Source: Halarcobacter anaerophilus (GTDB lineage: Bacteria > Campylobacterota > Campylobacteria > Campylobacterales > Arcobacteraceae). Taken from it: DNA of 64,000 bases. The notes under the pieces are model-generated. The model was not told the origin of the DNA, made no database searches, and was given only the letters and a program-made list of their open reading frames with translations. Below are positions 51,993-55,506 of the stretch, piece after piece. The stretch's first letter is position 1. Each line of letters opens with the position of its first letter. The stretch covers positions 2,790,001 to 2,854,000 of the forward strand of contig NZ_CP041070.1 of the NCBI RefSeq assembly GCF_006459125.1, read 5' to 3'. A program made the translations under genes and the position numbers.

Positions 51993-52790
51993 ATGAAAAA
52001 CAAAACTGAATTAGAAGCTGAATTAAAAAAAACCAGATTAATAATAGATGCCCAACCTAATATCGTAATTGTAACAAACGGTGAAAAATTGGTTGATGCA
52101 AATCAAGCTTTTTTAGAATTTTTCGGTGTTGAAACAGTTGATGAGTTTTTAGAAAAAACAGATTGTATTTGTGATTTTTTTATGAATGACGGCTCAAATA
52201 AATATTTGCAGAAAGTTTACCCTGACGGAACAAGATGGGCAGATTTATTAATTCAAGAACCTGATGTTCTACATAAAGCTATGATTTTGAATACAAATGC
52301 GGAAAAGACTATTTTTGAGGTAAAAGCCAATAAACTTATATCAAAAGAGGGAATTGATTACGGTCAAGACGTAGTTGTATTTTCGGATATTACTACAATG
52401 GAAAACCAAGCAACTCTTATTGCAGAGATGGAAATACCTATTTTGGAGATAAATCAAAATACTACATTAATACCTCTAATAGGAATATTGGATTCCGTAA
52501 AATCTCAAACTCTAATGGAAAACATATTAATCTCAATTAAAGAAAAAACTACAAATGTAGCAATTGTAGATATTGAAGGTATTATTATAGTCGACAGTGC
52601 AGTTGCAGCACACTTAATAAAAATAACAAAAGCTACAAAACTGATGGGTTGTACGACTATTCTTTCAGGAATAGCTCCTGAAGTTGCACAAACAATAGTA
52701 AACTTAGGTATAAATTTAGATGGGATATACACAACATCCACATTAAAAGATGCAATTACTCTTTCAAAAACACTTGAAAATGAAAAGTAA
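51993..52790 (+). CDS. RsbR-like stressosome sensor (PAS + STAS)
   Basis: 265 residues: a PAS sensory domain (about 15-135; QPNIVIVTNGEKLVDANQAFLEFFG) joined to a STAS domain (about 150-262; VAIVDIEGIIIVDSAVAAHL and CTTILSGIAPEVAQTIVNLGI). This is the RsbR layout. The two phospho-acceptor Thr of Bacillus RsbR (T171, T205) align with Ser202 and Ser225 here. No heme or flavin ligand can be named from sequence, but PAS domains of this type often bind a cofactor. ATG at 51993 follows AAAGGA; an in-frame TTG at 51972 lies before that site. First gene of a four-gene operon with RsbS-, RsbT- and RsbX-like partners. Confidence 0.87.
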   Translation: MKNKTELEAELKKTRLIIDAQPNIVIVTNGEKLVDANQAFLEFFGVETVDEFLEKTDCICDFFMNDGSNKYLQKVYPDGTRWADLLIQEPDVLHKAMILNTNAEKTIFEVKANKLISKEGIDYGQDVVVFSDITTMENQATLIAEMEIPILEINQNTTLIPLIGILDSVKSQTLMENILISIKEKTTNVAIVDIEGIIIVDSAVAAHLIKITKATKLMGCTTILSGIAPEVAQTIVNLGINLDGIYTTSTLKDAITLSKTLENEK

Positions 52791-53127
52791 TTATTTAATA
52801 AGCAATAATATTGCCATCTTTACGCTAAATCCTGAGGATAAACATTTAGATGATATGGGCGTAAAAATTTTACAAACAGCAAAAAAAGAGTTTGTACATT
52901 CTACTATTTTTGATTTAGCTCTTTTTGATGTTATCTCAAGTGAAGACATTGCTTTTATAGAAAAGCTGGTTCAAATATTAAAACTTCATAATATAGAGGT
53001 AATTGTTTGTAATTTTAACGTATATAGTGCATCAATACTATTTCACTTTGTTGAGAATATCTCTTTTAAAACAGAACTTAATGTACAAAAGGCAATGGAT
53101 GCTATTAAGAGTAACAAAAAAAAGTGA
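52780..53127 (+). CDS. RsbS-like STAS scaffold protein
   Basis: 115 residues forming a single STAS domain, the size of RsbS. The strand-helix element TIFDLALFDVISSEDIAFIEKLVQIL carries Ser53/Ser54 at the place of the RsbS phospho-acceptor Ser59. The second family motif (GMRP-like) is replaced by VIVCNFNVYSASIL, so the protein is divergent. ATG at 52780 overlaps the rsbR-like stop by 11 bases; an earlier ATG at 52750 lies deep within that gene. In a stressosome RsbS and RsbR form the icosahedral core that holds RsbT. The family call relies on size, STAS pattern and neighbours. Confidence 0.8.
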   Translation: MKSNYLISNNIAIFTLNPEDKHLDDMGVKILQTAKKEFVHSTIFDLALFDVISSEDIAFIEKLVQILKLHNIEVIVCNFNVYSASILFHFVENISFKTELNVQKAMDAIKSNKKK

Positions 53128-53476
53128 TGTAGCAGTTTTATTAACAAATGTTCGGCAGTTTTTAAAAGAGCACGATATTTCAAACAAAGGTTTACTTTTG
53201 GAGATAAAAACAATAGTATCCGAGCTTATATACAATATTCAAAAATATACTCCAAAAGGCTCTGTTAATTTGGAATTTCAAGATAAACATAATTTAAAAA
53301 TAGAAGCAATAGATCAAGGAAGCGGAATTGAAAACTTCAATTTGGCAATACAAGACGGATATAGTACAAGCGGAACTTTGGGATTGGGTTTTGCTTCAAT
53401 TTTCAGACTTAGCGATGAAGTTGAAGTTCAAACAAGTGAACAAGGAACAATAATAAATATAAAAAAAAGAGTCTAA
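53099..53476 (+). CDS. RsbT-like serine/threonine kinase of the stressosome
   Basis: 125 residues of the GHKL kinase fold. It has the N box ELIYNIQKYTPKGSV (about 43-57), the G1 box EAIDQGSGIEN (about 70-80) and the G2 box STSGTLGLGFASIFRLSDE (about 90-108). This matches RsbT (133 residues), which phosphorylates RsbR and RsbS and is released on stress. ATG at 53099 has AAGG six bases upstream and overlaps the rsbS-like gene by 29 bases. A much earlier ATG at 53003 only extends into that gene. In Bacillus, freed RsbT activates RsbU; no RsbU is here, so the following gene may be its target. Confidence 0.87.
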   Translation: MLLRVTKKSDVAVLLTNVRQFLKEHDISNKGLLLEIKTIVSELIYNIQKYTPKGSVNLEFQDKHNLKIEAIDQGSGIENFNLAIQDGYSTSGTLGLGFASIFRLSDEVEVQTSEQGTIINIKKRV

Positions 53477-53477
53477 C

Positions 53478-55358
53478 GTGTTGAAAATAAATGCTCAGAT
53501 TAAACCATATACAACTCCAAATGAATGTGGAGATTTTTATGATTTTATTGAACTTGATAAATATTTTTTATTAGTTATAGGAGATATAGGAGGACACGGT
53601 AGTCCCAGAGTCTATAATATTGCAACAAAAATAAGAGAGTTAATAGAAAAAAACAAAAAAGAGAGCCTAAAAGAGTTATTAACCTTGATACACTCTCAAG
53701 ATTATTTAAAAACCAACGGTATGGCCATTTTTTTGGCTCAAGTCTATAAAGAACTTCCAATAATGAGTTATTGTGCTATAGGAAATACAAAATCTTTTCT
53801 TTATAGAGAGAAAAACTTTATTCACCTTAAATCTCAAAGCGGAATTTTAGGTTATGATATACCAAGAACTATTAAAACAAATCTGATAAAGCTTTTAAAA
53901 AACGATACGCTTATAATATCTACAGACGGTGTAAGTTTGCATGATTCGCAAATAGAACCTCTTTTAAGAAGTGTAAAAGATATAAACATTCTTCCAAAAA
54001 AAATTGTAGCTAACTACGGGAAAAAAGATGATGACAGCCTTTGCTTTATAATAAAATTCGAAAATCTAAAAAATAAAAACTTTTCTGCAAAATTTCAAGA
54101 AGAGAACTTACAGATAAATAGTCTTAGAGGAAATAAAAGAGCTATAAAAAACTTTAATAAACACTCCCTTGACAAAACATATAAAAATGCAATTATAAAA
54201 GAGAAAAAAAGCAGTAATATCCATAATATAAAACTTTTAGACAATGATAACCTGATAGTTGAAAATCTTCAAAAAAAACTTCTGAATTTTAGTATTGACA
54301 AACTTGATTCAATAGTTAATTTCGGAGAAAAAAGTAAAGTAAAAATAAAAACATTTTTAACGGAAGCTTTAAATTATTCAAGCGTTGATATATATTTAGA
54401 TGAAAACCTGCTTCAATTATATATACACAATATCAAACCCTTGGCAAAAACTTTAGACTTCTTATTTAACAATTTTTATATTTTCAAAGATAATAGCTGC
54501 ATAATACATATAAGATTTAACGGGCATTTAAATAGTCAAAATATTGATATCCTCGTTTTAAAAGAGATGTTGGAACTTGGTTTAAATGATGAAGATTATC
54601 GTAAATTAAAACAAACTCAAGAGAACTTAGATAAACTGGCAAAACAGTCAAAACTGGCATCAATGGGAGAAATGATCGGTAATATTGCCCACCAATGGAG
54701 ACAGCCTTTAAGTGTAATCTCAACAATTGCAACAGGAATAGAGGTAAAGAAAAAATTTGATACCCTTGATGATACGGATCTTGAAAAAGAGATGGACTCC
54801 ATAATGAAACAGGTAAATTATCTATCTCATACTATAGATGATTTTAAAAACTTTATTAAAGGAGACAGAGAGTTTCTTCCTATTAGTATAAAACAGGTAC
54901 TTGAAGACACTATTTCATTAGTAGAAGCTAGTCTTAAAAACAACTATATAACTCTTATAACCGATATATCCCATGATATTAAAATTGAAGGGAATAAAAA
55001 CGAACTAGAGCAGGCTTTAATAAATATTATAAATAACTCAAAAGATGTGTTAAAAGAGTCTTCAAAAGAGGATAAGTATATTTTCATCTCTGCAAAAAAA
55101 ATAGAAGATGACAATTTGGAAATTAAGATTTTAGATAACGGTGGAGGGATAGACGAAAACATAATAGGAAGAATTTTTGAACCCTATTTTACGACAAAAC
55201 ACCAATCTGTTGGAACAGGTTTAGGTCTTTCTATGGCAGAAAAAATTTTAAGAGAAAGATATAATGCCTCAATAGAAGCCAATAATGAAGAGTTTGTTTA
55301 TAAAAAAGCTAAATACAAAGGAGCTTGTTTTACAATAATTTTTCCAGTAAATTCTTAA
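53478..55358 (+). CDS. RsbX/SpoIIE-type phosphatase fused to a histidine kinase
   Basis: 626 residues, no TM helix. About 1-192 are a PP2C phosphatase of the RsbX/SpoIIE kind: Asp19 in CGDFYDF, Asp36 in GDIGGHG, Asp150 in STDGV and the acidic cluster KKDDDSLCF (about 182-190). A poorly conserved middle (200-375) is followed by a coiled coil and a HisKA helix with His405 in NIAHQWRQPL. The HATPase domain has NIINNSKDVL, DNGGGIDENIIGRIFEPYFTT and GTGLGLSMAEK. RsbX resets stressosomes by dephosphorylating RsbR and RsbS; joining it to a kinase in one chain is unusual. The start is GTG 53478 or TTG 53481, directly after rsbT. No response regulator is adjacent. Confidence 0.88.
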   Translation: MLKINAQIKPYTTPNECGDFYDFIELDKYFLLVIGDIGGHGSPRVYNIATKIRELIEKNKKESLKELLTLIHSQDYLKTNGMAIFLAQVYKELPIMSYCAIGNTKSFLYREKNFIHLKSQSGILGYDIPRTIKTNLIKLLKNDTLIISTDGVSLHDSQIEPLLRSVKDINILPKKIVANYGKKDDDSLCFIIKFENLKNKNFSAKFQEENLQINSLRGNKRAIKNFNKHSLDKTYKNAIIKEKKSSNIHNIKLLDNDNLIVENLQKKLLNFSIDKLDSIVNFGEKSKVKIKTFLTEALNYSSVDIYLDENLLQLYIHNIKPLAKTLDFLFNNFYIFKDNSCIIHIRFNGHLNSQNIDILVLKEMLELGLNDEDYRKLKQTQENLDKLAKQSKLASMGEMIGNIAHQWRQPLSVISTIATGIEVKKKFDTLDDTDLEKEMDSIMKQVNYLSHTIDDFKNFIKGDREFLPISIKQVLEDTISLVEASLKNNYITLITDISHDIKIEGNKNELEQALINIINNSKDVLKESSKEDKYIFISAKKIEDDNLEIKILDNGGGIDENIIGRIFEPYFTTKHQSVGTGLGLSMAEKILRERYNASIEANNEEFVYKKAKYKGACFTIIFPVNS

Positions 55359-55418: not shown

Positions 55419-55506
55419 AGACAGGTGCTTGAGCGGTCGAAAAGGTACGCCTGGAACGCGTATGTAGTGAAAACTACCGAGGGTTCGAATCCCTTCTTGT
55501 CTGCCA
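55419..55506 (+). tRNA. tRNA-Ser (anticodon GGA)
   Basis: 88 bases including an encoded CCA (55504-55506). The 7-bp acceptor stem AGACAGG / CTTGTCT has one G-T pair and discriminator G. The anticodon stem is TACGC / GCGTA with loop CTGGAAC (anticodon GGA at 55453-55455). The long variable arm of serine tRNAs (GTAGT / ACTAC) and the T loop GGTTCGAAT are present. A TATAAT at 55384-55389 may be its -10 box. It converges with nuoN. Confidence 0.97.

Follow-up and report, generated by a model that had tools for sequence, protein, structure and literature searches.

A stressosome-type operon in Halarcobacter anaerophilus ending in a phosphatase–histidine kinase fusion with a probable RsbT-like middle domain

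Genes and domains of the operon

The window analyzed here is a 64,000-nucleotide stretch of the Halarcobacter anaerophilus genome (NZ_CP041070.1, positions 2,790,001 to 2,854,000 of the forward strand), and all gene positions below are counted from its first letter. It contains a tight operon of four genes on the same strand (+), namely rsbR, rsbS, rsbT and a gene for a 626-residue fusion protein. The first two overlap by 11 bp, rsbS and rsbT by 29 bp, and rsbT lies at a distance of 1 bp from the fusion gene. A first-pass annotation, made from the letters alone, had described overlapping genes for RsbR-, RsbS- and RsbT-like proteins followed by a protein of this length, and this is borne out by Pfam matches, alignment and coordinates.

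The RsbR-like sensor (51993–52790, +; 265 residues) has an N-terminal PAS domain at about residues 14–134 (Pfam PAS_8, E = 1.1e-6) and a C-terminal STAS domain at residues 150–241 (E = 1.5e-12), in agreement with the alignment to Listeria RsbR. In the PDB its STAS half finds RsbR chains of stressosomes: 7o0i_B (E = 6.5e-29), which we take to be from Vibrio vulnificus, and 9o3z and 6qcm (both about 1e-27). The RsbS-like scaffold (52780–53127, +; 115 residues) matches Pfam STAS at E = 0.011, below the Pfam cut-off, and has no PDB match up to E = 1. Its position, its length and its alignment with Listeria and other RsbS proteins agree with RsbS, and we read it as a diverged STAS protein. The RsbT-like switch kinase (53099–53476, +; 125 residues; HATPase_c_2, E = 1.5e-8) retains intact ATP-binding N, G1 and G2 boxes in the alignment (E42/N46, D72 and G95–G97). 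Ser168 and Ser202 of RsbR and Ser54 of RsbS align opposite a Thr, a Thr and a Ser of the Listeria proteins, presumably the residues that are phosphorylated there.

The fusion gene (53478–55358, +; GTG start) encodes an RsbX-like PP2C phosphatase, a middle domain that is probably RsbT-like, and a histidine kinase. The phosphatase occupies residues 1–190 (53478–54047, +; SpoIIE/PP2C, E = 3.2e-7) with its metal-site Asp residues kept (Asp19, Asp36, Asp150 and Asp185/186), and in the PDB RsbX (3w40) and a SpoIIE-named entry (3zt9) tie as its best matches, both at E = 3.8e-6. The kinase half consists of a HisKA dimerization and phosphoacceptor domain (54663–54863, +; E = 3.8e-6), with His405 at 54690–54692, and a catalytic HATPase_c domain (54993–55349, +; E = 1.8e-17), with its N, G1 and G2 boxes at N520, D553 and G579–G583. 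Across the six homologous fusions described below D19, D36, D150, D185, D186 and H405 are invariant, as are the three boxes of the kinase. The earlier reading of Asp19, Asp36, Asp150 and His405 was therefore correct, and so was its claim that a reset-type phosphatase and a complete HisKA/HATPase kinase are one polypeptide, which Pfam and an open frame in six loci confirm. RsbX itself has a single-domain layout, which is not what we find here. The likeness to RsbX and SpoIIE fits a putative role of this PP2C domain in resetting the core. No match to RsbU_N was obtained in Pfam up to E = 1 with the whole protein, or up to E = 10 with the N-terminal halves of the six members.

Occurrence of the fusion and exchange of its kinase core

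We searched for RsbT in 104 genomes of the same family, 398 drawn from the order and 5 of the family of genome G165, and used a profile of the phosphatase and middle region on 397 genomes drawn from the phylum and 44 of the family of genome G188. RsbT was found in 5 of the 104 family genomes, all five of which carry the fusion. The order sample yielded three, two of them new (G165 and G188), and in the family of G165 the only one of the five was G165 itself. The phosphatase and middle profile found three of the 397 phylum genomes, one of which, G307, has an unrelated PP2C protein; in the family of G188 the two hits among 44 were again G188 and G307. We rejected G307 as a locus of the RsbR-RsbS-RsbT (RST) type, since by eye its HAMP-type PP2C gene stands beside single STAS and HATPase genes. 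That set (L039) looks like RsbU/V/W-like partner-switching genes in the same phylum.

There are thus seven RST loci, in H. anaerophilus and six relatives, and in six of them the last gene is the fusion, in a single open frame. These span two families, with five members in one and G188 in the other. In all six, rsbT and the fusion gene are spaced by −4 to +1 bp. Because the entire fusion is an uninterrupted frame in six of seven loci, a chance fusion is excluded. The seventh locus, G165, has neither phosphatase nor kinase, and a gene that we take to be isoprenyl-transferase-like directly follows its RST genes.

By eye, no PAS domain is seen in the RsbR proteins of G165 (an open reading frame (ORF) of 196 residues with an unsure start) and G188 (153 residues). 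The five PAS-bearing RsbR proteins have in common the motif DCICD[FY]F...YL.K.YPDGT.W, and among the loci examined similar CxCEFF motifs occur in kinases of the relatives G010 (L073) and G188 (L084). The RsbR PAS domain is possibly of a metal-, redox- or haem-related subtype.

Two of 16 genomes of the genus have the cassette, both times between genes that we take to be mqnD-like and nuoN-like. In 10 of the 14 genomes that lack it nuoN lies close to mqnD with one gene of about 200 residues between them (flavodoxin-like by eye). As for the other four, one has the ~200-residue gene without nuoN beside it, two have another gene, and one reaches a contig end. The two with another gene show short DNA matches (50 and 77 bp) to the cassette. 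The flanks differ in the remaining fusion genomes. The set is patchy, and it is moved or lost as a whole.

The kinase cores of the six fusions do not form one lineage. The core in the window, which has an HQWRQPL motif common among kinases of its own and related genomes, shares 59% identity with two other H. anaerophilus kinases but only 45–49% with the fusion cores of genus g7; the genome holds 50 matches to the kinase, the query included. Trees were built from the cores of 30 loci returned by the search and of loci of the H. anaerophilus genome, a selection rather than every kinase. The six fusion cores occupy three separate positions in the trees, whether 54 or 45 cores are included, and at least three changes are needed to account for the well-supported branches. 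The smaller tree leaves out the D1 rows, the duplicates L002_2 and L003_1 and the distant cores L049_4, L049_5 and L050_9, and the 54-row tree that includes them likewise needs three. An approximately unbiased (AU) test rejects a single clade, with p = 0.0006 for the six rows and p = 0.0002 for the five family members, and we accordingly dropped the idea that the cores form one orthologous lineage. RST, PP2C and middle domain align throughout the fusion loci, before three different kinase cores. Since monophyly of the cores is rejected, it is the conserved front end and not the core that defines the system. The simplest history suggested by these trees is one ancestral fusion in which the core was replaced twice or more; repeated capture of cores behind a PP2C-middle unit is a functionally equivalent alternative. 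With the cores exchanged and the front end constant, the loci hint at where stressosome specificity resides and suggest that the front end can join other histidine kinase cores.

Separate-gene loci in other phyla and the middle domain

The closest described system is the rsbRSTX locus of Vibrio (V. vulnificus, with D1-D2, and V. brasiliensis), which has the same gene complement. It comprises RsbR, RsbS, RsbT, an RsbX-like PP2C protein and a histidine kinase at one locus without SigB (PMC9237108, PMC10014275, PMC4976288). In Vibrio sp. THAF191d the phosphatase (194 residues) and the kinase encoded by the next gene (1057 residues) are separate, in contrast to the single protein of the window. 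The Vibrio sensor is a globin whereas here it is a PAS domain; the THAF191d kinase carries PAS, REC and Hpt domains and is followed by a D2-like REC protein, and no D2 follows the fusion in the window.

A plasmid search with the STAS domain of RsbR returned 185 records. From these 13 loci were opened, a non-random choice, and ten have a readable row of RST, phosphatase and kinase genes. Outside the ten are Flammeovirga (split by the record start, and with another phosphatase layout), D. psychrotolerans (which runs off the record) and Listeria (a SigB operon). A plasmid search with the phosphatase half matched only Flammeovirga, and a scan of genome contigs returned only one distant kinase, in a metagenome-assembled genome of Burkholderiaceae. 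Phosphatase and kinase are separate genes in all ten loci. The first-pass annotation had contrasted the fusion with separate two-component genes downstream in other stressosome loci, and in these ten loci of other phyla the kinase is indeed a gene of its own.

Besides the Vibrio locus, the ten comprise nine loci with the order rsbRST-[HATPase-PP2C]-kinase, from Sphingomonas, Paraburkholderia, Salipiger, Phaeobacter, Deinococcus, Caballeronia, Variovorax and Halobaculum. Their gene order is the same as in the window, and six of the nine kinases have a recognizable N-terminal RsbT-like domain where the fusion has its middle domain. Pfam finds HATPase_c_2 at the kinase N-terminus in five of the ten (Sphingomonas, Paraburkholderia, Salipiger, D. 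radiodurans and Deinococcus sp. KNUC1210), and in a sixth, Phaeobacter, the domain is indicated by a second Pfam stretch and by the sequence. The corresponding region looks degenerate in Caballeronia (from alignment only) and in Vibrio (no Pfam match). For the Vibrio kinase N-terminus, profile comparisons gave z = 3.3 (0 of 40 shuffles) and 2.6 (1 of 40), and controls gave 1.0 and 1.1. The phosphatase also differs: in nine of the ten plasmid loci, the exception being Vibrio, an N-terminal RsbT-like HATPase_c_2 domain of its own precedes PP2C, so that such loci encode two or three RsbT-like domains. This phosphatase-borne domain is absent from the fusion in the window.

The middle domain of the fusion, about 115 residues between PP2C and HisKA (residues ~246–362; 54213–54563, +), is alignable in all six fusions and is probably a degenerate RsbT-like ATPase (GHKL) domain, as profile comparisons with shuffled controls and the alignment suggest. 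A profile of the six middle domains compared with a profile combining RsbT and kinase N-domains gave z = 5.9, with none of 60 column shuffles reaching the score and E = 0.014. The G188 middle domain alone gave z = 5.8, also 0 of 60, with E = 0.0065. Controls for the six-row profile were at chance (STAS, z = −0.4, 37 of 60; PP2C, z = 0.1, 24 of 60), and those for the G188 row were reached by 56 (STAS) and 15 (PP2C) of 60 shuffles. With a kinase-only profile, NHK2, which contained a Variovorax row without the RsbT-like domain, the counts were 1 of 60 for the six rows and 0 of 60 for G188.

Comparisons with smaller profiles were less discriminating. By local score three RsbT-type profiles were reached by 1, 0 and 0 of 150 column shuffles, RsbS by 113 of 150, RsbR by 49 of 100 and the whole kinase core by 23 of 100; PP2C and the kinases' own HATPase_c were each reached by 4 of 100. 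The PP2C profile also scored about as well as RsbT in an early comparison (15.8 versus 16.0), so the first signal was unusable alone, and it was the enriched profile of RsbT and kinase N-domains that separated the RsbT-type signal from PP2C. We rejected an assignment of the middle domain to RsbU_N, STAS or PP2C, as Pfam gave no match and the STAS and PP2C profile controls were at chance.

Global alignment of the profiles was not clearly better than shuffles (12, 129 and 18 of 150 for the three RsbT-type profiles), and the similarity hence rests on about 30–51 aligned columns around the N-box. There the fusions keep the N-box Glu only (Glu296, invariant); the Asn is present in one of six (G188), and G1 and G2 are gone. 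The alignment forms a series of erosion, in which RsbT has all boxes, the kinases of Sphingomonas, Deinococcus and Salipiger keep recognizable ATP boxes, Caballeronia and Vibrio are losing them, and the fusions are left with no more than that Glu.

Several results weigh against an RsbT-like middle domain and the model of RsbT mimicry proposed below. The domain has no Pfam family above the cut-off, and the match to RsbT is one of weak homology. Compared singly with the combined RsbT-type profile, the rows of the window (z = 2.6), G010 (3.2) and G188 (6.3) score higher than those of G098 (−0.4), G097 (0.8) and G101 (−0.5), which are not above chance and range from −0.9 to 1.8 over three RsbT-type profiles. 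The row of the window scores higher against PP2C (17.5, 3 of 60 shuffles) than against the RsbT-type profile (13.9, 0 of 60). A single-sequence AlphaFold model of the domain had a mean predicted local distance difference test (pLDDT) score of 38 and was rejected as unusable. Two of the ten plasmid-read kinases, those of Variovorax and Halobaculum, have no N-terminal RsbT-like domain. We consider the homology to RsbT likely, not proven.

In the literature that we covered, outside of which fall the key surveys (Pane-Farre 2005, 2017), we found neither this fusion nor RsbT-like domains in kinases linked to stressosomes described, and no stressosome paper for Arcobacter. We take the operon to be a previously undescribed form of the stressosome/two-component module of Gram-negative bacteria.

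Output, reset and surroundings of the operon

The SigB stressosome of Bacillus and Listeria (RsbR-RsbS-RsbT-RsbU-RsbV-RsbW-SigB-RsbX) has in common with the operon a homologous RST core, the phosphoacceptor positions and an RsbX-like phosphatase. Unlike there, no RsbU_N and no SigB-sized sigma factor were found here: in the H. anaerophilus genome Sigma70_r2 matches occur only in ORFs of 639, 173, 168 and 164 residues. Nor does that genome show a second RsbR-type or an RsbV-sized STAS protein, its matches being RsbR and ORFs of 546, 515 and 377 residues, in a search that missed RsbS and that a diverged RsbV could escape. A Bacillus-type SigB cascade was likewise not seen in the genome, where RsbW was not searched for separately. 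The description of the operon as a stress switch without sigma-B is upheld to the extent that a stressosome RST module is present and no SigB is visible in the genome. The output of the operon looks two-component.

A candidate response regulator was sought near the operon and its relatives. None is directly adjacent in the window or in four other loci of the family, a point against a kinase output from the operon. In G098 a gene for a protein that is REC-like by eye lies about 3.7 kb upstream on the opposite strand, and in G188 a same-strand REC-HATPase_c gene is found about 5.4 kb upstream. In G188 the operon is preceded on its own strand by REC-HATPase_c, PAS kinase and GGDEF-EAL genes with gaps of 15, 16 and 68 bp (L024, 8538–15584), possibly forming a seven-gene operon that could hold a partner of the kinase and a cyclic di-GMP (c-di-GMP) output. 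This arrangement brings to mind the link to c-di-GMP that has been proposed for Vibrio. We dropped an approach through the nearest paralogous kinases, as only one of three loci has regulators (kinase 2761557, with REC-wHTH-like proteins; none adjacent by eye for 2443483 and 2128846) and no inference was drawn from them.

Starting from what was observed directly, that is the gene order, the domains, their conservation in six genomes and the swapping of kinase cores, we propose that the kinase is the output of the stressosome, joined to it by RsbT mimicry, and that its own PP2C domain resets the core. We give this proposal an even chance of being right. In unstressed cells the RsbR/RsbS core would hold RsbT, and the fusion would use its degenerate RsbT-like middle domain either to dock on those same STAS surfaces or to pair with RsbT. 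On a signal at the PAS domain RsbT would phosphorylate Ser168 and Ser202 of RsbR and Ser54 of RsbS; the fusion would then be released or re-positioned, the autokinase activity of its C-terminal half would change, and the phosphoryl group would go to a response regulator whose gene lies elsewhere. The PP2C domain, kept at the complex by the same protein, would strip the Ser phosphates and so reset the switch. Because output kinase and reset phosphatase are joined in one protein, the two branches would have a fixed 1:1 stoichiometry and location. On this reading the operon would be a minimal stressosome of PAS-RsbR, RsbS and RsbT with reset phosphatase and output kinase as one molecule.

The first-pass annotation had instead suggested that freed RsbT might switch the kinase, which is not supported as stated: the fusion lacks RsbU_N, the known target of RsbT, and its linking domain resembles RsbT itself, so that entry of the kinase into the complex as a mimic of RsbT is more likely. 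We therefore favor docking by RsbT mimicry over a mechanism in which RsbT released from the core binds the fusion, as it binds RsbU in Bacillus. The latter is possible but unlikely. Points in its favor are an intact RsbT, whose gene stops 1 bp short of the fusion gene, and the ability of GHKL domains to pair, which would allow RsbT to bind the RsbT-like middle domain. In B. subtilis RsbU is started by the binding of RsbT (PMC12143880). For Vibrio, PMC9237108 suggests phosphorylation by RsbT as the route from stressosome to kinase and reports that RsbU_N is absent and that a test of RsbT with the downstream kinase D1 gave no positive interaction. This null result, which concerns RsbT and not the core, speaks against simple binding of RsbT to the kinase, and it weighs against our proposal as well.

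Considerably less probable is an intramolecular phospho-switch, in which RsbT phosphorylates the fusion and the PP2C domain acts on that mark and not on RsbR or RsbS. Covalent linkage would favor such a reaction, but the three phosphoacceptor positions of RsbR and RsbS still hold hydroxyl residues, as expected of remaining substrates, and the PP2C domain is RsbX-like. That the kinase half is an accidental C-terminal partner, serving an unrelated pathway or idle, in a protein that is only RsbX, is very improbable: the exchange of cores, the many similar kinases in the genome and the lack of an adjacent response regulator would suit it, yet none of the six homologues departs from His405 or from the N, G1 and G2 boxes, separate kinases occupy the same operon position in other phyla, and the fusion has been kept in two families.

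A wider form of RsbT mimicry, which we offer tentatively and think somewhat more apt to fail than to hold, is that two-component stressosome outputs in general work this way. Through its RsbT-like domain, which some phyla would retain intact and which here, and perhaps in Vibrio, would have worn down to a pure docking module, the kinase would bind to the RsbR-RsbS core and come off again; in the fusion the reset phosphatase would have been spliced on, with different kinase cores plugged in behind. The fusion bears on the question of how stressosomes outside the Firmicutes reach their outputs. PMC9237108 reports that the majority of the downstream proteins it considered are without RsbU_N, and RsbT mimicry, if true, would answer how Gram-negative stressosomes without such targets signal. 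That phosphatase, RsbT-like domain and kinase occur fused in nature is evidence for their acting together, and the RsbT-like domain provides a testable docking hypothesis for several phyla.

Elsewhere in the H. anaerophilus genome two other SpoIIE proteins are encoded, in ORFs of 1180 and 538 residues. The locus of the former (L050, contig C1, 958000–970000; 4498–11607) also holds a gene for an HQWAQP-type kinase, and its neighbors, which we take to encode SiaB-like, SiaC-like (DUF1987) and HD-GYP-like proteins, presumably make it resemble SiaABC with two-component and c-di-GMP parts. In SiaABC(D) a PP2C phosphatase and a GHKL-type kinase act on one small partner, a different protein from that of the operon in the window, to which this Sia-like locus is separate. 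By eye, the 377-residue STAS ORF stands beside a gene set resembling an ABC transporter.

In the downstream flank of the operon, outside the system, ARAGORN finds a tRNA-Ser (gga) gene (55419–55506, +) between the fusion gene and nuoN, and none in 13 flanks of congeners; the gap between the fusion gene and nuoN in G010 is only 20 bp. Genes for methyl-accepting chemotaxis proteins (MCP) adjoin the operon in two relatives, a NIT-MCP gene upstream in G098 (L018, 10198–12552) and a 4HB-MCP gene downstream in G101 (L020, 7263–9296).

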